12,830 nucleotides of DNA from Firmicutes bacterium AF25-13AC (lineage in GTDB: Bacteria; Bacillota; Clostridia; Lachnospirales; Lachnospiraceae), in contig QUFP01000065.1 of assembly GCA_003478935.1 (NCBI GenBank), forward strand, positions 1-12,830, in the 5' to 3' direction. The position numbers were made by a program, and so were the translations under genes. Shown piece after piece: positions 134-12,814 of the stretch (position 1 is its first letter; each line of letters begins with the position of its first letter). The notes beneath the pieces are model-generated. The model was not told the DNA's origin and made no database searches. It saw only the letters and a list, made by a program, of their open reading frames with translations.

Positions 134-162
134 TTGACTTGTTTGTAAGAATGTAGGATAAT
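134..162 (+). promoter_or_regulatory. sigma-A-type promoter for the polysaccharide operon
   Basis: TTGACT at 134-139 matches the -35 consensus TTGACA at five of six bases. GATAAT at 157-162 matches the -10 TATAAT at five of six. The spacer is exactly 17 bases. Transcription would begin near 168-171, giving an untranslated leader of about 100 bases before the ATG at 269. It is the best promoter seen in the window and lies upstream of the first gene, so it probably drives the cluster. It is recognised by pattern only. Confidence 0.7.
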
Positions 163-197: not shown

Positions 198-245
198 ACA
201 GCCGCAGAATCACTCTCGAGTTTCCGGGGGGGGTACTGCGGCTGT
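198..245 (+). promoter_or_regulatory. leader hairpin with G8 tract in its loop
   Basis: ACAGCCGCAG (198-207) and CTGCGGCTGT (236-245) form a perfect 10-bp GC-rich inverted repeat about 30 bases after the predicted transcription start. The 28-base loop carries CTCGAG and eight G in a row (226-233). No T-run follows, so it is not a simple terminator. The first gene's ribosome binding site (GGGAGG, 251-256) starts six bases after the stem, so folding could limit ribosome access or serve as a binding site for a factor. Clostridial polysaccharide operons are known to use leader RNA hairpins with processive antiterminators of the LoaP type. Whether this is one is a guess. Confidence 0.5.
226..233 (+). 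repeat. G8 homopolymer in the operon leader
   Basis: This is a run of eight G between TTTCC and TACTGC, inside the loop of the leader hairpin. Long G runs stand out in this AT-leaning sequence. Length change here would alter the leader RNA or its loop but no reading frame. Confidence 0.85.
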
Positions 246-268
246 ATAAGGGAGGGCAAAAAGAAGTA

Positions 269-1300
269 ATGTACAGAAAAGAATCTGAAGGCTGGTTCAA
301 GCATATCGACTTTATTCTGATTGATATGATTTGTCTGCAGGTGGCTTTTTATCTGGCCTATGTATTAAAGGGATTGGGAGTAAATCCGTATGCAGATCTT
401 GTATACCGTAATATGGCGATGGTGCTAGAGTTTGCCGATTTGGCAGCAATGTTTATGCTCGATACACTCACACATGTGACACTGAGAGGGCGTTACAGAG
501 AATTGATTGCGACAGCTGGAAATGTGTTGGCAGTCGGCTTGATTGGCAGTGCCTATCTGTTCTTTATGCAGGAGGGTGCAGCATTCTCTAGACTGATGTT
601 TGGTATTGCACTAGTTCTTTACTTTGTGTTCGCATATGCGTCTAGATTTGCATGGAAGAAAGTACTAGCAAGCGGTAAGTGGGAGCGAAACTGTCGGTCA
701 CTACTGATTGTTACGACAAAGGCAGAGGCACAGAAGGTTATTGAGACTGTTCAGGCTAACAATTACGGTAAGTTTTTGTTGAGTGGTTTGGTGATTGTCG
801 ATGCAGACATGGCGGGGCAGAGTATTGCCGGCGTGAAGGTAGTGGCAAACAGTGAAGATGCTCCGATGTATGTGTGTCAACAATGGATTGATGAGGTGTT
901 GGTTGTTGTACCAGATGAAGCTCCGTATCCAGAAGAGTTAATCAAGAAAATGGAAGAGACTGGTGTGACCATTCACTTGAAGATGTCTAAGATTGCAGAT
1001 GCAGAGGACAGACGCCAGTTTGTTGAGAAGGTTGGTTCTTATACCGTATTGACGACCAGTCTAAACTATGCATCCGCAAAGCAGCTTTTGTTTAAGAGAG
1101 TGATGGATATCGCTGGCGGTCTTGTTGGATGCTTATTAACCTGTATCATCTTTATCTTTATTGCACCGATTATTTACATTAGTTCTCCGGGACCGATTTT
1201 CTTCTCTCAGGAGAGAATTGGTAAGAATGGTAAGAAGTTTAAGATTTACAAGTTCAGAAGCATGTACATGGATGCAGAGCCAGAAAGGCGGAGCTTATGA
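269..1300 (+). CDS. polyprenyl-phosphate sugar-1-phosphate transferase, N-terminal part (frameshifted)
   Basis: This is the initiating enzyme of polymer assembly (WbaP/CpsE-type bacterial sugar transferase). Such enzymes move a sugar-1-phosphate from a UDP-sugar to undecaprenyl phosphate at the inner face of the membrane. Four hydrophobic segments lie at about residues 12-33, 48-68, 82-101 and 106-125. A soluble Rossmann-like domain (about 140-240) follows, then a membrane hairpin at about 282-305. The catalytic domain begins with [14 protein letters not shown] (305-318) and YKFRSM (327-332). The frame then breaks: after MDAE the sequence reads PERRSL and stops, while the -1 frame gives RKAELMKQN, the normal continuation. 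One base is missing near 1277-1282 (GAGCC where GAGGCC would restore frame). Repaired length is about 483 residues, normal for the family. The start ATG follows GGGAGG at 251-256. The sugar donor cannot be told from sequence. Confidence 0.9.
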
Positions 1301-1719
1301 AGCAAAACCGTGTAGCAGATGGAAAGATGTTTAAGCTTGATTTTGATCCGCGTGTCATTGGCAATAAGATCTTGCCGGACGGCACCAAGAAGACTGGCAT
1401 CGGTAATTTTATTCGAGTGACGAGCTTGGATGAGTTTCCGCAGTTCTTTAACGTGTTGAAGGGCGATATGAGTATCGTTGGTACGCGTCCACCGCTGCCG
1501 GGTGAGGTATCTGAGTATGAGCTTCACCACAGAGCAAGACTTGCAATTAAGCCTGGTATCACCGGTATGTGGCAGGTTAGTGGTCGAAGTGATATCACAG
1601 ACTTCGAGGAAGTTGTAAGACTCGATACAAAGTATATTAGAGAGTGGAGTCCTGCACTTGATATTAAGATCTTGTTTAAGACGGTGAAGACCGTGTTAGG
1701 CAAAGAGGGATCGATGTAA
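1297..1719 (+). CDS. polyprenyl-phosphate sugar-1-phosphate transferase, C-terminal catalytic part
   Basis: This is the rest of the transferase started at 269, in the next frame and overlapping its stop by four bases. Homologous sequence actually begins upstream of this ATG, at about 1282. It carries the conserved catalytic-domain stretches: [11 protein letters not shown], the GIGNFIR block, [26 protein letters not shown], and near the end the [14 protein letters not shown] block and [10 protein letters not shown]. It ends with the family's usual short hydrophobic tail, so the C-terminus is intact. Alone this 140-residue piece lacks the membrane hairpin and the SSPGP region and would not be expected to work. 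If the indel is an artefact the gene is whole; if real, polymer initiation would need another transferase. Confidence 0.9.
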
Positions 1720-1830
1720 AGGTGAGCAATTAGTCGAAGCCAAAGCGTAAGCGAAGGCGAAGATGAACAAATGAAAAGAATTAACCAGAGAGAAATCGTC
1801 GCGTTGTCGCGTTTCTTTAGGTTGAGGAAC

Positions 1831-1884
1831 ATAGTGCTTCGCTAGCCCACATGAATGAAGGTGGGATGGCGAAGCGCTATTTTT
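1831..1884 (+). terminator. strong intrinsic terminator-like hairpin inside the cluster
   Basis: The arm 1831-1850 pairs with 1861-1880 in 19 of 20 positions (two G-T pairs, one G-A mismatch) around a ten-base loop. The arm reads ATAGTGCTTCGC outward and closes with CCCAC/GTGGG. It runs directly into five T (1880-1884). The reverse strand lacks a T-run after the hairpin, so it would act only on + strand transcription. It separates the first gene from the rest, which suggests attenuation: most transcripts could stop here unless read through. An alternative is a dispersed palindromic repeat of the genome. Confidence 0.65.
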
Positions 1885-1894
1885 GTGAGAAGAA

Positions 1895-1922
1895 GTAAGA
1901 AAGAAAAAGTAAGAAAGAAAAA
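1895..1922 (+). repeat. purine-rich 14-bp tandem duplication
   Basis: GTAAGAAAGAAAAA occurs twice head to tail (1895-1908 and 1909-1922), between the hairpin at 1831-1884 and the start codon at 1944. It is all purine except one T per copy. It stretches the spacer between terminator and gene and may enhance ribosome loading through its G/A content, or it is simply a slippage product. Confidence 0.8.
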
Positions 1923-1943
1923 GATAGAAGTTGAGGACATTTT

Positions 1944-2180
1944 ATGAAAGGAAAACTTGCAATTGCAATGTTTGGCCAGAAACGTCTTTCGAGAGAAGGC
2001 GGAATTGAAATTGTCGTAAAAGAGCTTTGCACCAGAATGACACAAAATGGTTACAAGGTTACTTGCTACAATCGATCGGGTCATCATGTAAGTGGTGCAG
2101 AGTACGACAGAAAAACTGAATATGAAGGTATTTGTCAAAAGTATGTCCCGACGATTGAAAAAAAGGACTTGCAGCTGTGA
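1944..2180 (+). CDS. GT4 glycosyltransferase, N-terminal part (frameshifted)
   Basis: This is the amino end of a GT-B fold, family 4 glycosyltransferase, a cytoplasmic or membrane-associated enzyme adding one sugar to the lipid-linked chain. It starts MKGKLAIAMFGQKRL, then shows the glycine loop (REGGIEIVVKEL) that sits near the donor phosphate. The start ATG follows TTGAGGACATTTT (1931-1943), a modest ribosome site. The frame breaks in a run of seven A (2158-2164). As read, it gives IEKKDLQL and a stop. With eight A it would give IEKKGLAAVSSSFF and join the next frame smoothly. Repaired length is 373 residues, typical for the family. Confidence 0.85.
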   Translation: MKGKLAIAMFGQKRLSREGGIEIVVKELCTRMTQNGYKVTCYNRSGHHVSGAEYDRKTEYEGICQKYVPTIEKKDLQL

Positions 2181-3064
2181 GTTCTTCTTTTTTTGCGGCT
2201 CTCTATAGTGCTTTTGGAAAATACGATGTGGTACATATTCATGCGGAAGGTCCAGCCTTTTTTGCATGGCTACCAAAGCTATTTGGTAAGAGAGTCATTG
2301 TTACGATTCACGGTATTGACTGGCAGCGTGAAAAATGGAAGTCTGGATTTGGATCTAAGTTTATCCGTCAGGGCGAGAAGAATGCTGTGAAATATGCAGA
2401 TGAGATCATTGTGCTAAGTAAAGGCGTTCAGGACTATTTTAAGAACACCTACGGACGCGAGACACGGTTTATTCCAAATGGAGTAAACAGACCAAGCATT
2501 CGAAAGGCCAAGCTGATTACAGAGCAGTATGGATTAACGAAGGATTCTTATGTTTTGTTCTTGGGGCGTGTCGTTCCAGAGAAGGGAATCCGCTATCTGG
2601 TGGAAGCATTTAAAGATGTAAAGACAGATAAAAAACTGATCATAGCTGGTGGATCTAGCGATACCGATTCTTTTATGAAAGAAGTAAAAGAGCTGGCGAA
2701 GGATGATGATAGAATCACCTTTACAGGCTTTGTTCAGGAGCAGCTGTTGGATGAATTGTATAGCAATTCTTATATCTACACGCTTCCTTCTGATTTGGAG
2801 GGAATGCCGTTAAGCCTTCTTGAAGCGATGAGCTATGGAAATTGCTGTCTAGTTTCCAATATCCCTGAGTGTGCTGAGGTGGTGGAAGACAAGGCAGTGA
2901 TTTTTGAGAAGGCAAATGTGGATGATTTGAGAGAAAAGCTGCAAGCGCTTTGCGATCATCCAGAAAAGGTAGCTGAGTATAAGGCGCAGGCAGCAGATTT
3001 TATCTGTAAAAAGTACAATTGGGATGAAGTGGTAAAGAGGACAGTAGAGCTGTATGGGAGATAA
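2177..3064 (+). CDS. GT4 glycosyltransferase, main part
   Basis: This continues the gene begun at 1944; homologous sequence starts at about 2159, upstream of the GTG at 2177. It has VVHIHAEGPAFF and VTIHGIDWQREKW in the N-terminal lobe, FIPNGVNRP at the linker, and FLGRVVPEKGIRYLVEAF opening the nucleotide-sugar lobe. Further on are FTGFVQEQLLDELY and SDLEGMPLSLLEAMSYG, with the paired acidic residues E-x7-E of GT4 enzymes. It ends with the usual YNWDEVVKRTVELY helix. The GIDWQREKW pattern is typical of a GT4 group common in capsule loci; donor and acceptor cannot be assigned. If the A7 slip is real, this piece lacks the glycine loop and should be inactive. Confidence 0.9.
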   Translation: MSSSFFAALYSAFGKYDVVHIHAEGPAFFAWLPKLFGKRVIVTIHGIDWQREKWKSGFGSKFIRQGEKNAVKYADEIIVLSKGVQDYFKNTYGRETRFIPNGVNRPSIRKAKLITEQYGLTKDSYVLFLGRVVPEKGIRYLVEAFKDVKTDKKLIIAGGSSDTDSFMKEVKELAKDDDRITFTGFVQEQLLDELYSNSYIYTLPSDLEGMPLSLLEAMSYGNCCLVSNIPECAEVVEDKAVIFEKANVDDLREKLQALCDHPEKVAEYKAQAADFICKKYNWDEVVKRTVELYGR

Positions 3065-3070
3065 GAGAAG

Positions 3071-3183
3071 ATGAAGGTGTTGATGATTAATAATCTCCTC
3101 TAACCGAACGCAGGTGGTGAGATGTACATAGTGAAAATTCCGAAAAAGTAGCGTATTTACGGAACTTTTTGAGAGATGGATAG
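3071..3183 (+). pseudogene. decayed start of another GT4 glycosyltransferase
   Basis: After GGGAGATAAGAG, an ATG at 3071 opens MKVLMINNLL, then a TAA stop (3101-3103), then in the same frame PNAGGEMYIVKI before a TAG at 3149. This lines up with the N-terminus of the intact GT4 at 8678 (MRILLVNYRYFISGGPEKYM), with the stop where an aromatic residue would sit (TAT to TAA is one base). A further coding-like scrap, SEKVAYLRNFLRDG, appears in another frame at 3139-3180. The remainder of the gene is missing. I read it as a dead and mostly deleted glycosyltransferase; the assignment rests on about 20 residues. Confidence 0.55.
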
Positions 3184-3235
3184 AGCTGCGAGTGCAGTTT
3201 TTATCTCGCTCCCTAGGTTCAGTAACAGCAGATGA

Positions 3236-3364
3236 TTTTATCATAAGAACTTTCAGTATCACTACCTGCGTTTGTATGGAGCACTCTGGTTTATGAACAA
3301 TACATTGGAAGTGCTTCATCTGAACAGAGGTAGTGAAATAGAACATAAAAGGGAAAATACATGA
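3236..3364 (+). pseudogene. C-terminal fragment of an unidentified lost gene
   Basis: An open stretch of 42 codons with no start runs from after a TGA at 3233 to a TGA at 3362-3364. It begins FYHKNFQYHYLRLYGALWFM and is rich in aromatic residues. Its stop overlaps the acyltransferase start as ATGA, the arrangement of translationally coupled genes. It therefore looks like the true 3' end of a gene that once preceded the acyltransferase. I do not recognise the family. The interval between it and the GT4 remnant (about 3184-3232) shows nothing coherent. Confidence 0.4.
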
Positions 3365-3960
3365 CTAAACAGATTGCGGTAAAAACAAGAGAAAAGTGGG
3401 TCGATGATGTAAAAGTCATCGCCTGCATACTGGTGGTATTGGGTCATTTCTTTCAGAGCATGACGAAGGCGAATATCTTGCCGGAGAATGACTTGTATAA
3501 GTGGTTCAATACGACAATCTATTATTTCCATGTGCCGCTGTTCTTTATCTGTAGCGGATACCTTTATCAGAAGTACAGCAAGGTAAACAGTGTGGACAGC
3601 TGGTACAGGAATGTGGCTAAAAAGGCATTGGCACTCGGCGTGCCTTATGTGATCTTTTCTATAGCTACTTGGGTGTTGAAAAAGGCATTTTCGGGTAGTG
3701 TGAACAATCAAATTGGTGGATTAGGAGATATCCTGTTATTTCATCCTGCTTCGCCATACTGGTATATGTATGCATTGTTCTTTATTTTCCTTCTTACACC
3801 AACTTTTAAAAGCGTAAAGATGGCTGTAGGAGGCTTAATTGTAGCAATAGCTATGAAAACCATTGCATTGAATGGGGGGGGGGTACGGCGTTTATGCAGT
3901 ATCAACAGTTCTCTCAAACGAAATCTGGTTTGTGCTCGGTATGAGCATTTGTGTATTTAA
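3361..3960 (+). CDS. acyltransferase family 3 membrane protein, N-terminal part (frameshifted at G10)
   Basis: This is an OafA/WecH/YeiG-like integral membrane acyltransferase, which commonly O-acetylates surface polysaccharides. The start (ATGA overlap with the preceding stop, AAAGGGA just upstream) opens MTKQIAVKTREKWVDDVKVIACILVVLGHFF, with the family's histidine near residue 29. It is followed by YFHVPLFFICSGYLY and WYMYALFFIFLLTP, both standard family stretches. The coding sequence is good to ALN at about residue 171, then meets ten G (3874-3883). In this frame it continues GGGVRRLCS and runs to a meaningless tail with a stop at 3958-3960. With nine G it would read NGGGYGVYAVSTVLSNEIW and stay in frame. 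Repaired length is 334 residues, normal for the family. Confidence 0.85.
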   Translation: MTKQIAVKTREKWVDDVKVIACILVVLGHFFQSMTKANILPENDLYKWFNTTIYYFHVPLFFICSGYLYQKYSKVNSVDSWYRNVAKKALALGVPYVIFSIATWVLKKAFSGSVNNQIGGLGDILLFHPASPYWYMYALFFIFLLTPTFKSVKMAVGGLIVAIAMKTIALNGGGVRRLCSINSSLKRNLVCARYEHLCI

Positions 3961-4366
3961 TGTGCAGCTAAAAGGGAGAAGAATACAAGGAACTATATAC
4001 GGAGCCTTGTTTATGATTTTTAGTGTGGTGGTGTATAAGGCAAAAATTAGTGGCGGTGTGATTCCTTTCGCAATGGGATTGTTGGCTTGTGTAGCCGTCA
4101 TCCTGATGGTGGCGGGGGTTGAAAGAAGATTTGGTAGGGTCATGGATTTTCTTGCAAAATACACAATGCCGATTTTTCTGATGCATACGTTGTTTGCGGC
4201 ACCAATGAGATCAGTTTTGTTGAAGTTGGGTATCGGAAGCTTTGTGATCCATGTGGTGTTGGGACTAGGAATTAGCTTTGTAGGTCCGATTATTGCGGCT
4301 TGGATTATGAAGAAAACAAAGTGGTTGGAGTTCTTCCTGTATCCGAATAAATTTGTGAAGATATGA
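3872..4366 (+). CDS. acyltransferase family 3 membrane protein, C-terminal part
   Basis: This is the second half of the acyltransferase in the +1-shifted frame. It has hydrophobic segments around LSNEIWFVLGMSICVF, ALFMIFSVVVY, GLLACVAVILMV, TMPIFLMHTLFAAPM and the last helix VVLGLGISFVGPIIAAWIM. The TMPIFLMHT block is a usual late motif of the family. The start at 3872 is only the first ATG of the open frame (it overlaps the G-run) and has no ribosome site, so this is unlikely to be an independent gene. It stops at 4364-4366. Confidence 0.8.
   Translation: MGGGYGVYAVSTVLSNEIWFVLGMSICVFNVQLKGRRIQGTIYGALFMIFSVVVYKAKISGGVIPFAMGLLACVAVILMVAGVERRFGRVMDFLAKYTMPIFLMHTLFAAPMRSVLLKLGIGSFVIHVVLGLGISFVGPIIAAWIMKKTKWLEFFLYPNKFVKI
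3874..3883 (+). repeat. G10 homopolymer within the acyltransferase gene
   Basis: Ten consecutive G lie between AAT and TACGGC. The flanking reading frames are joined only if the run has nine (or twelve) G, so the tract decides whether full-length acyltransferase is made. The tract would encode three glycines in a loop between membrane segments, where length change is easily tolerated. Confidence 0.85.
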
Positions 4367-4383
4367 AATTGAGGAGTAAAAAT

Positions 4384-5433
4384 ATGAGCACAGTAACTTT
4401 AGATAAAAAAACAATTTTAGTCACAGGAGCGGCGGGCTTTATAGGATCCAACCTTGTGAAACGAATCTATCAGGAAGCGCCTTCCGCTACGGTTATCGGC
4501 ATCGACAACATGAATGCCTACTATGACGTAGCACTAAAGGAGTTCCGTCTGAACGAGCTGGCCAAGTATCCCACATTTACTTTTGTCAAAGGCAATATAG
4601 CTGATAAGGCACTGATCACTGAGCTGTTCGAGAAGTACAAGCCATCTGTGGTCGTTAACCTTGCGGCACAGGCTGGTGTGCGCTATTCGATTACCAATCC
4701 AGATGCGTATGTGGAATCTAATTTGGTTGGCTTTTTTAATATTCTGGAGGCTTGCCGTTACTGTGAGACATTGGAGCATCTAGTATATGCTTCTTCTTCA
4801 TCTGTATATGGTTCTAATAAGAAGGTTCCGTACAGCACAGATGATAAGGTAGACAATCCGGTTTCTTTATATGCTGCAACTAAGAAATCAAACGAGCTGA
4901 TGGCTCATGCTTACTCTAAATTATATAATATCCCATCCACTGGTCTACGTTTCTTTACTGTGTACGGTCCGGCTGGTCGCCCAGATATGGCATATTTTGG
5001 CTTTACCAATAAGTTGGTGAAGGGAGAGACAATCAAGATCTTCAACTATGGCAATTGTAAGCGTGATTTCACCTATGTGGATGACATAGTTGAAGGTGTT
5101 GTCCGTGTCATGAAGAAAGCGCCAGATAAGAAGAATGGTGAAGATGGTTTGCCAATTCCACCGTATGCAGTTTATAACATCGGTAATCAGAATCCAGAGA
5201 ATCTGTTAGACTTTGTTCAGATCTTGAGCGAGGAATTGGTAAGAGCAGGTGTTTTGCCAGAGGATTATGATTTTGAAGCTCATAAAGAATTGGTTCCGAT
5301 GCAGCCAGGCGATGTTCCAGTAACCTATGCAGATACCAGTGCGCTAGAGCGTGATTTTGGATATAAGCCAAGTACCAGTTTGCGAGATGGATTGAGAAAA
5401 TTCGCAGAGTGGTATGCAGAGGTTTACAAATAA
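4384..5433 (+). CDS. UDP-glucuronate 4-epimerase (NAD-dependent)
   Basis: This enzyme interconverts UDP-glucuronate and UDP-galacturonate in the cytoplasm, supplying an acidic sugar for the polymer. It is a short-chain dehydrogenase-type protein: TGAAGFIGSNL (14-24) binds NAD, ASSSSVYG (136-143) and the catalytic YAATK (163-167) follow. VYGPAGRPDMAYF (193-205) and GNCKRDFTYVDDIVEG (223-238) are the blocks that set glucuronate 4-epimerases apart from ordinary GalE. I choose the ATG at 4384 because TTGAGGAG sits at 4369-4376; an in-frame ATG at 4363 would add seven residues but overlaps the previous gene and lacks such a site. Length is 349, usual for the family. It works with the dehydrogenase at 7423, which makes its substrate. 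The exact substrate is inferred from motifs. Confidence 0.9.
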   Translation: MSTVTLDKKTILVTGAAGFIGSNLVKRIYQEAPSATVIGIDNMNAYYDVALKEFRLNELAKYPTFTFVKGNIADKALITELFEKYKPSVVVNLAAQAGVRYSITNPDAYVESNLVGFFNILEACRYCETLEHLVYASSSSVYGSNKKVPYSTDDKVDNPVSLYAATKKSNELMAHAYSKLYNIPSTGLRFFTVYGPAGRPDMAYFGFTNKLVKGETIKIFNYGNCKRDFTYVDDIVEGVVRVMKKAPDKKNGEDGLPIPPYAVYNIGNQNPENLLDFVQILSEELVRAGVLPEDYDFEAHKELVPMQPGDVPVTYADTSALERDFGYKPSTSLRDGLRKFAEWYAEVYK

Positions 5434-5464
5434 ATGCAATAAATATAGATAGGAAAATGTACTC

Positions 5465-5659
5465 ATGAAGTGTATTGAGGTTTACAAGAATATATACCAT
5501 CAAGAACCATTTGATGTGGCCTTTTGTCCATATCGAATCAGTCCATTAGGTGCTCATATTGATCATCAGTATGGAAAGATTAATGGTCTTGCAATTGATA
5601 AAGGCATCCACATGCATATCATCCAAAGCAGAATGGTGTTGTGGAATTACAGTCACTGA
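5465..5659 (+). CDS. galacturonokinase-like GHMP kinase, N-terminal part (frameshifted)
   Basis: This is the amino end of a galactokinase-related kinase. YRISPLGAHIDHQYG (residues 23-37) replaces the galactokinase signature (GEHTDY type) with the GAHIDHQ form that I recall from plant galacturonokinase; this is memory, not an alignment. It is in frame to about HMHII (5620), then shifts. As read it ends SRMVLWNYSH and a stop, while the other frame reads PKQNGVVELQS from 5623 on, the expected continuation. One base is missing between roughly 5611 and 5623, where there is no long homopolymer. It starts at an ATG after TAGGAAAA, 31 bases from the epimerase stop. Confidence 0.8.
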   Translation: MKCIEVYKNIYHQEPFDVAFCPYRISPLGAHIDHQYGKINGLAIDKGIHMHIIQSRMVLWNYSH

Positions 5660-6636
5660 ATTTCCCAAAGCGTGCACAGTTTTTTGTAAGTGCAGTACCA
5701 GAGGAAAAGCAGGGAGACTGGGCGGATCATTTGCGCGGTGCAGCAAAGATGCTAGGTGAGAAATATCGACTGAAGGTTGGTCTGTCTGGTATCATCGAAG
5801 GTAGTTTGCCCATTGGTGGTCTATCTTCATCAGCATCCGTTATTATCTGTTTTCTGTCTGCATTGTGTAAGGTAAATGGCATTCATCTAGATCCGATGGA
5901 GATGATCATGACAGCAAAAGCAGCAGAAAACCAGTATGTTGGTGTTTCTTGTGGCAAGCTTGATCAGAGTTGTGAGGTCCTTTCAAAGAAAGATCATCTG
6001 CTGTACCTCGATACAAAGGATGACAGTTATGAGTTGATTCCAGTCAATGAAAATATGAAGCCATATAAGATTGCAATTTTCTTCTCTGGTTTGGAGCGCT
6101 CCTTGAAAAATTCAAAATATAATCTGAGACAGGACGAATGCAAAGCAGCAGCATATGCGTTGATGGGCTATGCTGGAATGAATTATGATACCTTTGCGAA
6201 CACGAGATTGAGAGATGTTCCGTTTGAGGTATTTGAAGCTTATAAGAATCGTTTACCAGAGCTGTGGAGAAGAAGAGCTGAACATTACTATAGTGAGTTT
6301 GATCGCGCAGAAAAAGGTGCCAACTTGTGGCGCAAGGGTGATTTGGAAGGATATGGTCAGCTTGTTTTCGAGAGCGGTAAATCTTCTATTTATAGTTATG
6401 AATGTGGCTGTGATGAACTGAAAAAGCTGTATGAAATCATGGCAGATACAGATGGCATTTATGGTGGTCGCTTCTCAGGTGCAGGTTTCAAGGGATGCTG
6501 TATGGCTCTGATTGATCCAGAAAAGGCAGAGAAGATTGAAGCAAAGGTGACAAGAGAGTATTTGAAGGCATTCCCTGAATTGGAAGGAAAGTATAGTTTC
6601 CACTTGTGCGAGAGTGCAGATGGAGTAGAGCTGTAA
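5641..6636 (+). CDS. galacturonokinase-like GHMP kinase, main part
   Basis: This would phosphorylate a free sugar at C1 with ATP, most likely D-galacturonate. It carries GHMP motif 2, LPIGGLSSSASV (repaired residues about 115-126), the base-bearing GKLDQS (about 164-169), and motif 3, YGGRFSGAGFKGC (about 333-345). KYNLRQDEC, RRAEHYYSE and SYECGCDELKKLY also match what I remember of Arabidopsis galacturonokinase, which favours that substrate over galactose. The frame is open from about 5623; the GTG at 5641 is only its first listed start and has no ribosome site. Repaired length is about 390 residues. Its neighbours (uronic acid epimerase, nucleotidyltransferase, UDP-glucose dehydrogenase) support a uronic acid substrate. 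Ordinary galactokinase activity is the main alternative. Confidence 0.8.
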   Translation: MELQSLNFPKRAQFFVSAVPEEKQGDWADHLRGAAKMLGEKYRLKVGLSGIIEGSLPIGGLSSSASVIICFLSALCKVNGIHLDPMEMIMTAKAAENQYVGVSCGKLDQSCEVLSKKDHLLYLDTKDDSYELIPVNENMKPYKIAIFFSGLERSLKNSKYNLRQDECKAAAYALMGYAGMNYDTFANTRLRDVPFEVFEAYKNRLPELWRRRAEHYYSEFDRAEKGANLWRKGDLEGYGQLVFESGKSSIYSYECGCDELKKLYEIMADTDGIYGGRFSGAGFKGCCMALIDPEKAEKIEAKVTREYLKAFPELEGKYSFHLCESADGVEL

Positions 6637-6654
6637 GAGGAGATAGAGTACAGA

Positions 6655-7395
6655 ATGAAATGTTTGATTTTAGCAGCTGGATATGCAACTCGTTTGTATC
6701 CACTGACAGAGAACTTTGCTAAGCCACTTCTAAAGGTGGGTGAGAAGTCGATTCTTGATTGGCTTGTGGATGATCTGGTTGAAACAACGGATATTGATGA
6801 GTTTGTAGTGATTTCCAATCATAAGTTTGCAACTCACTTTGAAGAGTGGAAGAATAATAAAGAAAAGACAAGATCCTATGAGATCACTGTGATTGATGAT
6901 GGTACTAGTACTAATGAAAGCCGACTAGGAGCAGTCAAGGATATACAGTTGGCAGTTGACAAACTGAAGCTGACAGATGATCTGCTAGTAATGGCTGGTG
7001 ACAATGTGCTAGATTTTAGTCTTTCCAAGTTTGTTGAGTTCGCAAAGAAAAAGGATACTTCCTGTGTGATGTGCCATGAAGAAAATGAACTGAAGAAACA
7101 GCAAAAGACAGCAATTATTACAGTTGATAAGAATGATTTGATTACTTCTTATGAGGAAAAGCCGAAGGAACCGAAAGGTAACTTGGCTGTGCCGCCATTC
7201 TATTGTTATCGCAGTGTTGATGTAAAGCGTATTCAAGAGGCATTGGATAGTGGTTGTGGTTACGATGCACCAGGTAGCTTTGCAGCTTGGTTGAGTAAAC
7301 AGACACCAATGCATGCTTATAAAATGCCGGGAAAGCGGTATGACATTGGCGATATTAATAGCTATGAGTATGTAAAGAGTGTGTTCTCAAAGTAA
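6655..7395 (+). CDS. sugar-1-phosphate nucleotidyltransferase
   Basis: This cytoplasmic enzyme joins a sugar-1-phosphate to a nucleoside triphosphate, releasing pyrophosphate (RmlA/GalU-like superfamily). LAAGYATRLYPLT (6-18) is the nucleotide-binding signature, KPLL (23-26) follows, MAGDN (113-117) supplies the metal-binding aspartate, and EEKP (167-170) and YDIGD (229-233) are the late conserved blocks. At 246 residues it is a compact member. AGAGGAGAT precedes the start at a normal distance, 18 bases after the kinase stop. The tight kinase-nucleotidyltransferase pair suggests it takes the kinase product, giving UDP-galacturonate (or another NDP-uronate). The nucleotide and sugar preference are inferred from neighbours, not seen in the sequence. 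Confidence 0.85.
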   Translation: MKCLILAAGYATRLYPLTENFAKPLLKVGEKSILDWLVDDLVETTDIDEFVVISNHKFATHFEEWKNNKEKTRSYEITVIDDGTSTNESRLGAVKDIQLAVDKLKLTDDLLVMAGDNVLDFSLSKFVEFAKKKDTSCVMCHEENELKKQQKTAIITVDKNDLITSYEEKPKEPKGNLAVPPFYCYRSVDVKRIQEALDSGCGYDAPGSFAAWLSKQTPMHAYKMPGKRYDIGDINSYEYVKSVFSK

Positions 7396-7422
7396 GAAGG
7401 CTTGGGAGGGCTGAAAAGTACC

Positions 7423-8673
7423 ATGAGAGAATTTAAAGATTTGAAGATTGCAGTAGCTGGAACTGGTTATGTTGGTTTATCGATTGCTACACTGTTAAGC
7501 CAACATCACAAGGTAACGGCTGTAGATATTGTTCCTGAAAAGGTAGAGCTAATTAATAATAAGAAATCTCCGATTCAGGATGAATATATTGAAAAGTATT
7601 TGGCAGAGAAGAATCTTGATTTGACCGCTACATTGGATGCAAAGGAAGCATACAGCGATGCTGATTTTGTGGTCATTGCAGCGCCGACAAATTATGATTC
7701 TAAGAAGAACTTTTTTGATACATCTGCGGTTGAGGCAGTTATTAAGCTGGTTATTGAATATAATCCAGAAGCCATTATGGTGATCAAGAGTACGATTCCG
7801 GTTGGATATACAGCATCAATTAGGGAAAAGTTCCACTGTGATAATATTTTATTCAGTCCTGAGTTCTTGAGAGAGAGTAAGGCTTTGTATGATAACCTGT
7901 ATCCAAGCCGTATTATTGTTGGTACAGATGTGGAGAACGCAAGGCTTGTAAAGGCTGCACATACATTTGCTGAGCTTTTGCAGGAGGGCGCGATCAAGGA
8001 AGATATTGATACGTTGTTTATGGGCTTCACTGAGGCAGAGGCTGTTAAACTGTTTGCGAATACCTATTTGGCGTTGAGAGTTTCTTATTTTAATGAGCTG
8101 GATACCTATGCAGAGATGAAGGGGTTAAATACTCAGCAGATTATTAATGGTGTTTGCTTAGATCCCCGTATTGGCAGCCATTATAACAATCCAAGTTTCG
8201 GTTATGGTGGTTATTGCTTGCCGAAGGATACAAAACAGTTGCTAGCAAATTATCAGGATGTACCAGAAAATCTGATTGAGGCGATTGTGGAAAGCAATCG
8301 GACAAGAAAGGATTTTATTGCTGATCGAGTGCTGGAGATTTCAGGTGCTTATCAGGCAAATGACAGCTGGGATGAGAGCAAGGAAAAGGAAGTTGTGGTT
8401 GGTGTATATCGTTTGACGATGAAGAGTAACAGCGACAACTTCCGCCAGAGTTCCATTCAGGGTGTCATGAAGCGCATTAAAGCCAAGGGAGCAACAGTTA
8501 TCATTTATGAGCCTACGCTGAAAAATGGGGATACGTTCTTTGGCAGCCGAGTTGTTAATGATTTAGAAGAATTCAAAAAACAGAGCCAGGCAATCATTGC
8601 AAACCGCTACGATAAGAGCCTGGACGATGTGAAGGAAAAAGTTTATACAAGAGATATTTTCCAGAGGGATTAA
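7423..8673 (+). CDS. ugd: UDP-glucose 6-dehydrogenase
   Basis: This enzyme oxidises UDP-glucose to UDP-glucuronate with two [12 protein letters not shown] (12-20) is the NAD site. APTNYD (87-92), STIPVG (123-128), SPEFLRE (145-151), [20 protein letters not shown] (206-225) and [12 protein letters not shown] (259-270, catalytic C265) are the family's conserved blocks. [16 protein letters not shown] (328-343) belongs to the UDP-binding C-terminal domain. I use the ATG at 7423 rather than the TTG at 7402, because GGGAGGG (7404-7410) lies ahead of 7423 and the mature N-terminus then fits the family. Length is 416 residues. A related UDP-sugar dehydrogenase (for example UDP-ManNAc dehydrogenase) is less likely given the block details and the glucuronate epimerase nearby. 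Confidence 0.92.
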
Positions 8674-8677
8674 AGAT

Positions 8678-9925
8678 ATGAGAATTTTACTGGTTAATTA
8701 TAGATATTTTATTTCGGGTGGACCGGAAAAATATATGTTCAACATTAAGAAGATGTTAGAAGATAATGGGCATGAAGTGATTCCGTTCTCCATCCATTCT
8801 AACAAAAATGTTGAAACAGAGTATTCCAAATATTTTGTAGAGCCGATTGGAAGCCGTGACGCAACTTATTTTGAAGAATGTAAAAAGACCCCAAAGGTCA
8901 TCTGGCAAATGCTGACTCGCAGTATCTATTCTACTGAGGTTGAGAAAGCTATTAAGAAAGAAATCAAAGATGTAAAACCGGATTTGGTATACATCATCCA
9001 CTTTGTAAACAAGCTTTCACCGAGCGTGATTTGCGGTGCAAAGAAGATGGGTGTTCCGGTAGTGCTGCGATTGTCAGACTACTTTTTACTGTGCCCGAGA
9101 TTTGATTTCATGTACAACAAGAAACCATGCGAAGAGTGCCTTACGAAGGGGTATAGGACTTGCATCAAGAAAAGGTGTGTAAAGGGGTCGCTGTTTGCAT
9201 CGGTCGTTCGAGTTTTTTCTATGAAAGTACATAAGGCGATGAATGTATATAAAGGTGTGGATGCATTTATTACGCCGTCTGAGTTTTTAAAGAAGAAACT
9301 GATTGAGAATGGTTTTGATGAGAATAAAATAACCTGCATTCCGACATTTACGGCAAGCAAATCAGAAGTCGGCAAACCACAGGTTGGAACATATGGTTTG
9401 TATTTCGGGCGTGTGACAGAGGAAAAAGGTGTTGACACTGTTGTCAAAGCATATGAGATGATGCCGGATCGTCATGTGAAAATAATGGGCGATGATACAA
9501 CAGACGAGGCAAAAAGATTAAAGGCATATATCAAAGAGAAGAAAATTAAGAATGTTGAGTTCTTAGGCTTTAAAGCTGGCGAGGAATTGGAAGAGATCAT
9601 CAAGGGCGCACGATTCACACTGATTCCGTCCATTTGGTATGACAACCTTCCAAATACTGCATTGGAGTCTTTTCAGTATTCAAAGCCGGTTATTGCAAGC
9701 AATATCGGAAGCCTACCAGAGCTTGTTTTGGATGGAGTTAATGGTTATCTGTTTAAGCCTGCCGATGCTCGGGAACTGTGCGAAAAGATTGCTTTGCTGG
9801 ATGATGATGCTGTTGTAGAGAAAATGGGAGCTGCAAGCCGAGCTAGATTAGAAAATCGGTTTGCACCGCAGACTCATTATAATACATTGATGAAGGTATT
9901 TAGTCGTGTGAGAAAAGAAAATTGA
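8678..9925 (+). CDS. GT4 glycosyltransferase with cysteine-rich insert
   Basis: This is an intact 415-residue GT-B fold family 4 glycosyltransferase. The glycine loop is FISGGPEKYMFN (11-22), VVLRLSDYFLLCPR (128-141) lies in the first lobe, LYFGRVTEEKGVDTVVKAY (241-259) opens the second, and IWYDNLPNTALESF (319-332) carries the acidic D-x7-E pair. Between them is a cysteine cluster (C139, C151, C154, C162, C167), the CEECL...TCIKKRC pattern seen in a subgroup of GT4 proteins and possibly metal-binding. It starts four bases after the dehydrogenase stop, with AGAGGGA inside that gene's last codons, so the two are probably translated together. Donor and acceptor are unknown. Confidence 0.88.
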   Translation: MRILLVNYRYFISGGPEKYMFNIKKMLEDNGHEVIPFSIHSNKNVETEYSKYFVEPIGSRDATYFEECKKTPKVIWQMLTRSIYSTEVEKAIKKEIKDVKPDLVYIIHFVNKLSPSVICGAKKMGVPVVLRLSDYFLLCPRFDFMYNKKPCEECLTKGYRTCIKKRCVKGSLFASVVRVFSMKVHKAMNVYKGVDAFITPSEFLKKKLIENGFDENKITCIPTFTASKSEVGKPQVGTYGLYFGRVTEEKGVDTVVKAYEMMPDRHVKIMGDDTTDEAKRLKAYIKEKKIKNVEFLGFKAGEELEEIIKGARFTLIPSIWYDNLPNTALESFQYSKPVIASNIGSLPELVLDGVNGYLFKPADARELCEKIALLDDDAVVEKMGAASRARLENRFAPQTHYNTLMKVFSRVRKEN

Positions 9926-9949
9926 GAGTAAACAATAGGAGAGTTAATC

Positions 9950-11128
9950 ATGTCTGAAGAAAAGAAGTTAAATGGTACTGTCATCGTTACTTACCGCTGC
10001 AATGCTCGTTGCTCCATGTGTAACCGCTATAAAGCACCTTCCAAGCCGGAAGAAGAAATCAGCATTGAAACCATCAAGAAGCTGCCGAAGATGTACTTCA
10101 CAAACATCACCGGCGGCGAGCCGTTCATCCGTACTGACCTGAAGGATATCGTGCGTGAACTGTACAAGAAATCTGACCGTATCGTCATTTCGACCAACGG
10201 TTTCTTCACAGATCGTATCGTTGATTTGTGCAAAGAGTTCCCTCAGATCGGTATCCGTATTTCTATAGAGGGCCTAGAGCAGACCAACAATGAGATTCGC
10301 GGTCTGCAGAACGGCTACCAGCGTGGTTACGGTACGCTGAAGAAGCTGCGTGAGATGGGCATGAAAGACGTTGGTTTCGGCATGACCGTTCAGGACAAGA
10401 ATGCTCCAGATCTGGTTCCTCTGTACAAAATCTCTAACGAGATGGGTATGGAGTTCGCAACCGCTTCCCTGCATAACAGCTTCTATTTTGTTGAGGCTAA
10501 GAATATCATCCACGACCGTCCGATGGTTGCTAAGAACTTTGAGAATCTGGTCAACGAACTGCTCCGCAGCAATAGCCCCAAGAAGTGGTTCCGTGCATAC
10601 TTTAACCACGGCTTGATCAATTACATCTACGGTCAGAAGCGTCTGCTGCCTTGCGATATGAGTTTTGATACCTTCTTTATCGACCCGTATGGCGATGTTA
10701 TGCCTTGTAATGGTACCAAGGATAAGGAAGTCATGGGCAACCTGAACAATCAGACTTGGGACGAGTTGTGGAACAGCCCGGAAGCAGAGAAGGTTCGTGC
10801 AAAAGTTCGTTGCTGTGACCGTGACTGCTGGATGATCGGCAGCGTAAGTCCTGCTATGCACAAGTACATCTGGAAGCCTGCTATCTGGGTTTTGGTTCAT
10901 AAGTTCAAGGCTCTGTTCACCAAGCATCCGTACTCTATGTACGAACTGAAAATCTGCCGTGATTACCGTGATGGCAAAGTCACTAAAGAGAATCTGGATA
11001 AGTGTAGCACCTGCGACATGAACTGCGTGATCAATAACGGTCTGAGCGAGGCAAGCAAGGAGCAGCTAAAGCATAAATCTGGAGAACAGATTGTTGATGA
11101 AGATATTGCAAAACAGATGGAGAAATAA
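9950..11128 (+). CDS. radical SAM protein with SPASM-like and extra C-terminal cysteine motif
   Basis: The cluster motif CNARCSMC (C17, C21, C24) binds the S-adenosylmethionine 4Fe-4S cluster, followed by ITGGEPFIR (53-61) and VISTNGF (79-85). The C-terminal half has C235, C253 within DPYGDVMPCNGT, and C288/C289/C293, a SPASM-like auxiliary cluster region. A last CSTCDMNC (352-359) is an additional cysteine group. TAGGAGAG sits ahead of the ATG, 24 bases after the GT4 stop. Length is 392. SPASM enzymes usually modify peptides or sugars; I cannot name the substrate. Its codons look richer in C and G than those of its neighbours (34 G/C of 60 at 10081-10140), which hints at different ancestry or strong expression. 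In a glycan locus a sugar-modifying role is plausible but not shown. Confidence 0.88.
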   Translation: MSEEKKLNGTVIVTYRCNARCSMCNRYKAPSKPEEEISIETIKKLPKMYFTNITGGEPFIRTDLKDIVRELYKKSDRIVISTNGFFTDRIVDLCKEFPQIGIRISIEGLEQTNNEIRGLQNGYQRGYGTLKKLREMGMKDVGFGMTVQDKNAPDLVPLYKISNEMGMEFATASLHNSFYFVEAKNIIHDRPMVAKNFENLVNELLRSNSPKKWFRAYFNHGLINYIYGQKRLLPCDMSFDTFFIDPYGDVMPCNGTKDKEVMGNLNNQTWDELWNSPEAEKVRAKVRCCDRDCWMIGSVSPAMHKYIWKPAIWVLVHKFKALFTKHPYSMYELKICRDYRDGKVTKENLDKCSTCDMNCVINNGLSEASKEQLKHKSGEQIVDEDIAKQMEK

Positions 11129-11130
11129 AA

Positions 11131-11361
11131 ATGTATTCTATAACAAAAAGTAAGACTACAAAGCGATATGCTATTTTCATATGTCTAGTATATATATTTG
11201 TATTCAAAGATTGGATGGAACAGTATATACCCGTTGTTGGTTATATGGATGAACTATTTGCGGTATTATCTATCCCTGTTTTTGTATTTGAACTAAAAAA
11301 GAATCAATTTAAACTTAAAATACAAAAATGTACATGGGGGGGTATGCTAGGTTCATTCTAG
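11131..11361 (+). CDS. O-antigen polymerase/ligase-type membrane protein, N-terminal part (frameshifted at G7)
   Basis: This is the amino end of a polytopic membrane protein. Segments YAIFICLVYIFVF and DELFAVLSIPVFVFEL look like the first two membrane helices. It starts two bases after the radical SAM stop, with TGGAGA inside that gene's end. The frame breaks at seven G (11336-11342): as read, KCTWGGMLGSF and stop, whereas eight G would give KCTWGGYARFILVFLCFGF and join the next frame. Repaired length is about 410 residues. Base composition turns sharply AT-rich from here on. Confidence 0.75.
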   Translation: MYSITKSKTTKRYAIFICLVYIFVFKDWMEQYIPVVGYMDELFAVLSIPVFVFELKKNQFKLKIQKCTWGGMLGSF

Positions 11362-12362
11362 TATTCTTATGTTTTGGTTTTCTATCTAGTGTCATTTATA
11401 GATATCAAAGTATATTGAAAGCAGAAGTATCGGATGCATTTTTATGTATAAAATTTTGGCTTGCATTATATGTTGGAAAAAAGATTTTTGCAAAAATAGA
11501 TATGCAAAAATATGCAAGCAAAATATATTTTCATGTAAAATGCATTACGATATTGTATGGAGTGTTAATTGTTATTGATTATTCACTTCACATTTTCCAA
11601 GCGACAGAAAGATATGGTTTAAGATCTGAACAATTGATGTACACGCATCCAACGGTACTTGTAGCTTGCTGTGTGTTTTTGATTATGATTCTCCTTTCAC
11701 TTAAAAATTATGTAACAGGAAGCAAGAAATATATAATAATGCTATTGCTCATAATGTGTTCTACTTTAAGAAGCAAAGCTTTTGGAGCCGCACTTGCAAT
11801 CATATTAATATGTTATTTTGTGTTTGTTCGAAAGAAAAAAATAACGCTGAGAACAATGTTGCTATTTATTCCTTTGGTTGTGATTTTAGGATGGGATCAA
11901 ATACAATATTATTTTTTCAGTTCAATCATTCCGGATTCTGCCAGGTATCAATTACTTACAAAAGCGTTTGAAATTGCAAGAGATATGTTTCCATTAGGTG
12001 CAGGATTTGCTACATTCGGTTCATATTATTCTGGAGTATACTATTCATCGGTATATGCAGCATATGGATTATCTAATATTAATGGGTTACGCATCGGGGC
12101 ATCACAATTTATAAGTGATTCGTTTTGGCCAATGATATTAGGGCAATCAGGATATTTTGGACTGTTTTCGTACATTTTTGCAGTAATGATGTTACTCAAA
12201 GCAATCCAAGGAATTAGAAGAGTAGAAAATTCATATTATGCTGCAGCAATGAGTGGAATATGTTATTTGATAATTGTATCAATGGCAGAATCTGCTTTCG
12301 TGCATCCGATAGCGGTACCGATAGCTATGATGATAGGAGCTTTTTTAGGAAAATGTGAGTAA
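11328..12362 (+). CDS. O-antigen polymerase/ligase-type membrane protein (Wzy-like), main part
   Basis: This is a membrane protein with about ten hydrophobic segments in this piece, including FILVFLCFGFLSSVIY, TILYGVLIVIDYSL, VLVACCVFLIMILLSL, AALAIILICYFVF, MLLFIPLVVILGW, YFGLFSYIFAVMMLL and VAVPIAMMIGAFLG. Between the late helices is a long hydrophilic loop with DSARYQLLTKAFEIARDMF and PLGAGFATFGSYYSG, the R...G.G..F arrangement of Wzy/WaaL-type proteins. It would join repeat units into polymer outside the membrane (Wzy) or attach polymer to a carrier. The listed ATG at 11328 overlaps the G-run region and lacks a ribosome site, so it is part of the gene begun at 11131. 11701-11760 has only 14 G/C of 60, unlike the upstream gene. 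Confidence 0.8.
   Translation: MYMGGYARFILVFLCFGFLSSVIYRYQSILKAEVSDAFLCIKFWLALYVGKKIFAKIDMQKYASKIYFHVKCITILYGVLIVIDYSLHIFQATERYGLRSEQLMYTHPTVLVACCVFLIMILLSLKNYVTGSKKYIIMLLLIMCSTLRSKAFGAALAIILICYFVFVRKKKITLRTMLLFIPLVVILGWDQIQYYFFSSIIPDSARYQLLTKAFEIARDMFPLGAGFATFGSYYSGVYYSSVYAAYGLSNINGLRIGASQFISDSFWPMILGQSGYFGLFSYIFAVMMLLKAIQGIRRVENSYYAAAMSGICYLIIVSMAESAFVHPIAVPIAMMIGAFLGKCE
11336..11342 (+). repeat. G7 homopolymer within the polymerase gene
   Basis: Seven G lie between TACAT and TATGC in a very AT-rich gene. Eight G would fuse the two reading frames; seven leave the protein truncated after about 76 residues. The run encodes Trp-Gly-Gly just before a membrane helix. Confidence 0.8.
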
Positions 12363-12479: not shown

Positions 12480-12770
12480 GTGGAACTAAAAATAAAACCT
12501 ACTAAAATTTTAATGTGGTTATCATATAACTGTTTGTTTTTTTCCATCATGCTTAAAATGCTATATCAAACAAACCAAAATAGCACTATAAGACTTTTGG
12601 GATTTGGTATGCAGGCAATAGTTTTGCTGTGTTATTTTTTGGAGGAATTGATAACATTAAAAAGAAAATCAATAAATTGTATTACTTTGATTTTAGGGAT
12701 TCTAGTTGTATATCAATGTGTAATTACTATATTAAATGATTCAATTTTATTTACCTTATACGCCAATTGA
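12480..12770 (+). CDS. membrane protein, N-terminal fragment (interrupted near window end)
   Basis: From the GTG at 12480 the protein is 96 residues with three likely membrane segments: ILMWLSYNCLFFSIMLKML, GFGMQAIVLLCYFLEELI and ITLILGILVVYQCVITIL. It resembles the start of a second Wzy-like or other polytopic glycan protein, but the family is not certain. The stop at 12768-12770 falls in the first copy of a 44-bp duplication. In another frame of the second copy the sequence reads FYLPYTPIDIFIWP to the window edge, which looks like the true continuation. It would be reached in frame from one copy of the repeat if the T4 run at 12743-12746 had one more T. So the gene is probably longer and interrupted by an indel plus duplication, or by assembly errors. 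Confidence 0.55.
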   Translation: MELKIKPTKILMWLSYNCLFFSIMLKMLYQTNQNSTIRLLGFGMQAIVLLCYFLEELITLKRKSINCITLILGILVVYQCVITILNDSILFTLYAN

Positions 12771-12814
12771 CTATATTAAATGATTCAATTTTATTTACCT
12801 TATACGCCAATTGA
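12727..12814 (+). repeat. 44-bp perfect tandem duplication at the window end
   Basis: The 44 bases 12727-12770 (CTATATTAAATGATTC... to ...CGCCAATTGA) are repeated exactly at 12771-12814, with no spacer. Forty-four is not a multiple of three, so the copy shifts the reading frame of the membrane gene it lies in. Only 16 bases follow the second copy. Such a repeat at a sequence edge can be a true duplication or an assembly overlap artefact. Confidence 0.95.

Follow-up and report, generated by a model that had tools for sequence, protein, structure and literature searches.

Poly-G runs as candidate slipped-strand switches of an acyltransferase gene and a polymerase-like gene in a Lachnospiraceae exopolysaccharide operon

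The stretch of DNA analysed here (12,830 nt, called the window below) carries an operon with three long runs of G, one in its leader, one in an acyltransferase gene and one in a polymerase-like gene, and both of these genes are out of frame at their runs. This arrangement raises the question of whether the operon is switched by gain and loss of Gs, as in known phase-variable loci, or whether the runs reflect a structural RNA element, sequencing errors or gene decay. The operon is an exopolysaccharide locus, containing an initiating sugar transferase, glycosyltransferases and precursor genes, and its features are as follows.

134..162, + strand: promoter-like site (TTGACT, 17 nt, GATAAT), matching 10/12 positions in a consensus scan, which is no evidence of function
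198..245, + strand: predicted leader RNA hairpin, an inverted repeat whose 3' side contains the G8 run (fold of 165-275, z -4.66)
226..233, + strand: G8 leader run, 35 nt upstream of the sugar transferase start
269..1719, + strand: polyprenyl sugar-phosphate transferase (CoA_binding_3 and Bac_transf), split at about 1.29 kb, off any G run
1944..3064, + strand: GT4-type glycosyltransferase, split at about 2.17 kb
3361..4366, + strand: Acyl_transf_3 acyltransferase, its frame lost behind the G10 run
3874..3883, + strand: G10 run in the acyltransferase gene, with run-length and frame variants in relatives
4363..9925, + strand: epimerase, galactokinase-like protein (split at about 5.65 kb), nucleotidyltransferase, UDP-sugar dehydrogenase and a second GT4-type glycosyltransferase
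9950..11128, + strand: radical SAM/SPASM protein
11131..12362, + strand: polymerase/ligase-like membrane protein, its frame lost at the G7 run
11336..11342, + strand: G7 run in the polymerase-like gene; near-identical proteins in the database occur in either frame state

The polymerase-like protein has no Pfam match of its own, and many of its listed relatives have PF04932. No Wzx-type flippase was found among the annotated ORFs of the window, which may end before it. Between the first glycosyltransferase and the acyltransferase (3065-3340) there is no plus-strand ORF of 60 codons, and this segment may be a gene remnant. Base composition is mosaic over 9950-12362, with a GC3 of 0.60 in the radical SAM gene and 0.20-0.24 in the polymerase gene, compared with 0.36-0.50 in the preceding genes. 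A 45-base direct duplication at 12726-12814 (copies at 12726 and 12770) lies at the end of the window and may be an assembly artefact of the contig end.

The sequence-only reading of this DNA had proposed slippage switches at three points, namely leader, decoration and polymerisation, on the grounds that the runs are longer than chance would give, that TAC or TAT follows each of them, and that both coding runs are one base off the length needed for full protein. These observations hold: the three runs are present, TAC follows G8 and G10 and TAT follows G7, and among 1000 dinucleotide-preserving shuffles of the window a single one has three or more runs of 7+ (a run of 10+ arose in 2). Run lengths of G or C across the window are 1, 2, 3, 4 and 5, and then 7, 8 and 10, with no other run of at least 6 and a single run of 5 as the next longest. 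GGG accounts for 11 of 169 glycine codons in eight other ORFs of the window and for 2 of 24 in the acyltransferase outside its run. One mark of phase-variable genes, a long homopolymer beyond chance in a coding or control region, is thus found in the window. Both coding runs coincide with frame breaks (ORFs 3361-3960 and 3872-4366 for the acyltransferase, 11131-11361 and 11328-12362 for the polymerase), and relatives agree that each run is one base off, since there are nine Gs in the full-length acyltransferase gene of genome G029, and the full-length polymerase protein P0122 calls for a run that differs by one base from that of the window.

Relatives of the acyltransferase were found with the 199-aa off-form ORF as it stands, and the best 120 of 2365 matches were compared. 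Behind the same glycine run, 90 of these 120 carry the off tail of the window, 5 read in the third frame, 24 are full-length and 1 is of another kind, proportions that do not represent a population frequency because the query was itself the off form. When 116 of 121 sequences (the 120 and the window, less 5 from which a 160-residue core could not be cut) were compared in pairs, 37 pairs shared at least 95% identity up to the run and read in different frames behind it, and seven of these pairs, including the window and P0018, were identical over the 160 residues. In the DNA itself, a run of 9 goes with the full-length frame in G029, and a run of 8 with a broken one in G198. Near-identical alleles with frame-changing length variants, a further mark of phase-variable genes, are therefore found for the acyltransferase. 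Its Blautia producta counterpart stands at 78% against the window, and relatives such as this one point to Lachnospiraceae as the source family.

In the off-reading copy of the window, the acyltransferase segment downstream of the run shows purifying selection. The comparison of the window with G029 behind the run gave a dN/dS of 0.14 (dS 0.34, 160 codons); with G198, synonymous change was saturated (pS 0.84) and pN was 0.29. A viral fragment, L017, gave a dN/dS of 0.67 over 66 codons behind the run, a value to which we attach no weight because the fragment is homologous there for about 26 residues only. Selection that maintains function in off alleles was found for the acyltransferase only. 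Two observations count against a switch at this gene: the run is interrupted by another base in some relatives, P0018 included, which lowers slippage, and the runs implied by many of the off copies are short, about seven, and would be expected to slip less often. Overall, the frame variants in near-identical relatives argue strongly that this gene is probably switched by slippage. Among viral contigs, one acyltransferase relative was found by sequence and none with an alignment query, and no polymerase relative was found. In genome G198, two adjacent acyltransferase genes (L053, 2447-4471) are each split at a G run of their own (7 and 8), and a G9 run lies in a hexapeptide-transferase ORF 6 kb further on.

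For the polymerase, the 344-aa piece was used as the query. P0121 (344 aa, 545 members) has the same broken start as the window, and P0122 (410 aa, 415 members) and P0154 have the same sequence as P0121 and are intact with the full N-terminus, the member numbers being those of 90% clusters rather than counts of run states. P0123 and P0126-P0128 likewise begin at the run. Accordingly, both frame states occur in near-identical alleles of this gene also (P0121 versus P0122 and P0154). When 120 relatives were aligned to P0122, the residue behind the run was tyrosine in 77 and another residue in 22, and 21 stopped short of the site; before that tyrosine there were 2 or 3 glycines in 22 relatives and one in 38. 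The long run therefore belongs to the window's lineage rather than to the family as a whole, and the near-identical full-length and broken forms give fair support to a putative slippage switch at the polymerase within that lineage.

We also surveyed 397 genomes of one family, inferred to be Lachnospiraceae, for the pattern H-G8-N{0,4}-TAY, which was present in 224 of them, a figure for matches to the pattern and not for all runs. Sixty regions holding 65 such runs were retrieved, and a run was called mid-gene when an open frame of at least 80 codons lay on both sides of it. In the retrieved loci, frames were broken at 14 of 24 mid-gene runs of 8+, at the single run of 7 (1/1), and at 3/15, 7/79 and 27/341 runs of 6, 5 and 4, respectively. 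The difference between 14/24 for runs of 8+ and 34/420 for runs of 4-5 gave a Fisher P of 4e-9, although the rows are not fully independent and most of the 8+ runs had been chosen for TAY. Thirty pieces, taken from 34 gene sites beside runs, were scanned with no background gene set; 6 were Acyl_transf_3, 5 glycosyltransferase-type, 3 hexapeptide transferases, 2 DUF6056, 1 a sulfatase, 1 a BspA-type LRR, 1 SHIRT and 3 others (a TPP enzyme, an asparagine synthase and a sigma-54 activator), and 8 had no match, with 4 of the 22 Pfam matches falling below Pfam's cut-off. Surface-glycan genes are thus prominent, making up many of the genes beside the runs. A -10-like box lay directly behind 11 of the 65 runs, with a -35-like box 15-20 nt before that, compared with 1, 0, 0 and 0 at control offsets; two of the 11 are in or at genes.

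Among individual loci, intergenic runs of G8-G10 lie between TTGACA-like and TATAAT boxes at L103, L107, L114, L116 and L117, which are candidate promoter-spacer switches of related genomes. In genome G121 (L084, L085 and L086), G8-G10 runs sit just behind a Cys codon in several similar genes, within what resemble lipoprotein signal peptides, and a Pfam scan of the L084 and L086 pieces gave no match. The 1.6-Mb genome G150 (L160-L163), with 121 pattern matches, was considered as a hyper-variable genome and dropped: 80 kb of it contained 12 mid-gene runs of 8+, of which 11 leave the frame intact, and its runs were read as codon bias. Long G runs that stay in frame are numerous in this genome, so that run length by itself does not prove switching.

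The TAC or TAT that follows the three runs of the window need not represent one DNA element. Behind the acyltransferase run, TAC encodes a tyrosine that is found in the full-length relatives displayed; TAT behind the polymerase run encodes the tyrosine that aligns in 77/120 relatives; and TAC in the leader sits within the predicted hairpin. Because TAY has these other explanations in the window, we do not claim a common element of a G run plus TAY. Among 150 listed runs of the 307 of 8+ in 77 genomes, TA follows 49 and TAY follows 24, and the baseline after a G in the window is 9.5% for TA and 5.5% for TAY. This excess is due in part to -10 boxes, which lie directly behind 13 of the 150 runs, compared with 1-2 at each of five other offsets.

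Taken together, the comparisons favor the reading that this is an exopolysaccharide or capsule operon whose acyltransferase and polymerase genes carry unstable G runs and are probably switched by slipped-strand mispairing, to which we assign a probability of roughly 0.8. Mispairing during replication would add or remove Gs, the downstream part of each gene would be shifted in or out of frame, and the decoration or the polymer would be made by some cells and not by others. A change in the leader run might act through the hairpin or through access to the ribosome site. From these sequences we infer slippage as the cause, together with its reversibility, rate and phenotype and the effect of the leader.

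At the leader, slippage switching is only suggested, and we consider the chances evenly balanced between a switch and a run with no role beyond the structure of an RNA hairpin. G8 is in the inner stem of the hairpin, downstream of the promoter-like site, and the predicted strength of the fold favors the structural explanation. Leaders of 30 related sugar transferase loci were compared (300 nt read in 28, 98 and 171 nt in the other two), and no run of at least 6 was present in the stretch read for 28 of the 30. Nor does the run form a promoter spacer, as it is downstream of the promoter-like site; no -10 box directly behind G8 with a -35 box before it, and no promoter across the run, was found. 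Against a purely structural role, G030 has a run of 9 and G042 a run of 8 shortly before the start codon of the same gene, compared with a chance expectation of about 0.006 in 30 leaders, although the sugar transferases of these two genomes are 84% identical and therefore probably count as one lineage. A search of the 397 genomes with the leader pattern gave four matches, which were G030, G042 and two places not before this gene. A scan of genome contigs yielded sugar transferase relatives of 37-42% only, and no such hairpin was found in their upstream regions; no Rfam family matched at the gathering threshold. The cited text on LoaP leader hairpins describes a UNCG tetraloop (PMC12691694); the likeness is that of a leader hairpin of a long biosynthetic operon in a Gram-positive organism, but the predicted loop here has six bases, AGUUUC.

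On another explanation, the frame breaks would be homopolymer length errors of sequencing or assembly, and the genes would be intact in the cell. Three genes of the window are indeed broken away from G runs, the sugar transferase at about 1.29 kb, the glycosyltransferase at about 2.17 kb and the galactokinase at about 5.65 kb, and the sugar transferase break is absent from all of the 120 listed relatives: 104 continue well past the site, 3 end nearby without the window's tail (P0259, P0277 and P0293), and of the 13 that lack the search motif 9 have a normal C-terminus and 4 end before the site. This private break therefore reflects error or mutation, so the run lengths of the window itself are weak evidence, which error may explain, and the database variants carry the case. 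As a general explanation error fails, because many independent database clusters contain acyltransferases that read off behind the run, including one from Blautia producta (P0054, 82 contigs, the longest 5.97 Mb), and because G150, in keeping its frame at 11 of 12 long runs, indicates that assembly does not generally break them. We regard error as unlikely to account for both genes. Slightly less likely still is ordinary decay, in which the acyltransferase and the polymerase would be pseudogenes hit at mutable runs, since the abundance of off forms among the listed matches and the loss of frames with no other visible regulation are outweighed by an acyltransferase part that is open and constrained behind its run in the comparisons with G029 and G198, and by intact and broken forms side by side in near-identical proteins.

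Slipped-strand switching of the two coding genes thus remains the preferred reading, and its extension to a coordinated switch of leader, decoration and polymerisation is possible, with the polymerase and leader runs confined to few lineages. We are doubtful of the widest version, in which poly-G contingency loci would occur family-wide in glycan genes and promoters of the Lachnospiraceae, abundant gut commensals, and the three runs here would together make up a random switch in layers, the leader run adjusting output by way of its hairpin.

Runs of the kind found between -35 and -10 boxes at 11 of the 65 family sites resemble Neisseria porA, where a homopolymer forms the promoter spacer, and the leader run of the window is not of that type. 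Within the Firmicutes, homopolymer slippage reportedly occurs at the poly-C tract of mga in group A Streptococcus; that gene regulates surface protein in a pathogen, whereas the window carries a glycan operon. The closest likeness is to the poly-G contingency loci of Campylobacter jejuni, such as cgtB, in which the frame of a surface-glycan gene is set by the length of a run of about 8-9 Gs (PMC6437147); that system was established by experiment in a Gram-negative pathogen, whereas the present case is drawn solely from sequence comparison, concerns Gram-positive gut bacteria and has acyltransferases in a prominent place. Surface glycans of gut Bacteroides, also commensals, are switched at random as well, but by inversion of promoters according to the cited text (PMC10939037) rather than by slippage.

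Classic slipped-strand phase variation is a known kind of regulation, and what differs here is the commensal clade and the spread; in the open-licence literature on phase variation, we found no report of the homopolymer form in Lachnospiraceae. At present, off alleles resemble pseudogenes in assemblies of these bacteria. If the proposed switching is true, capsule diversity, phage resistance and immune recognition would have to be read differently from such assemblies.
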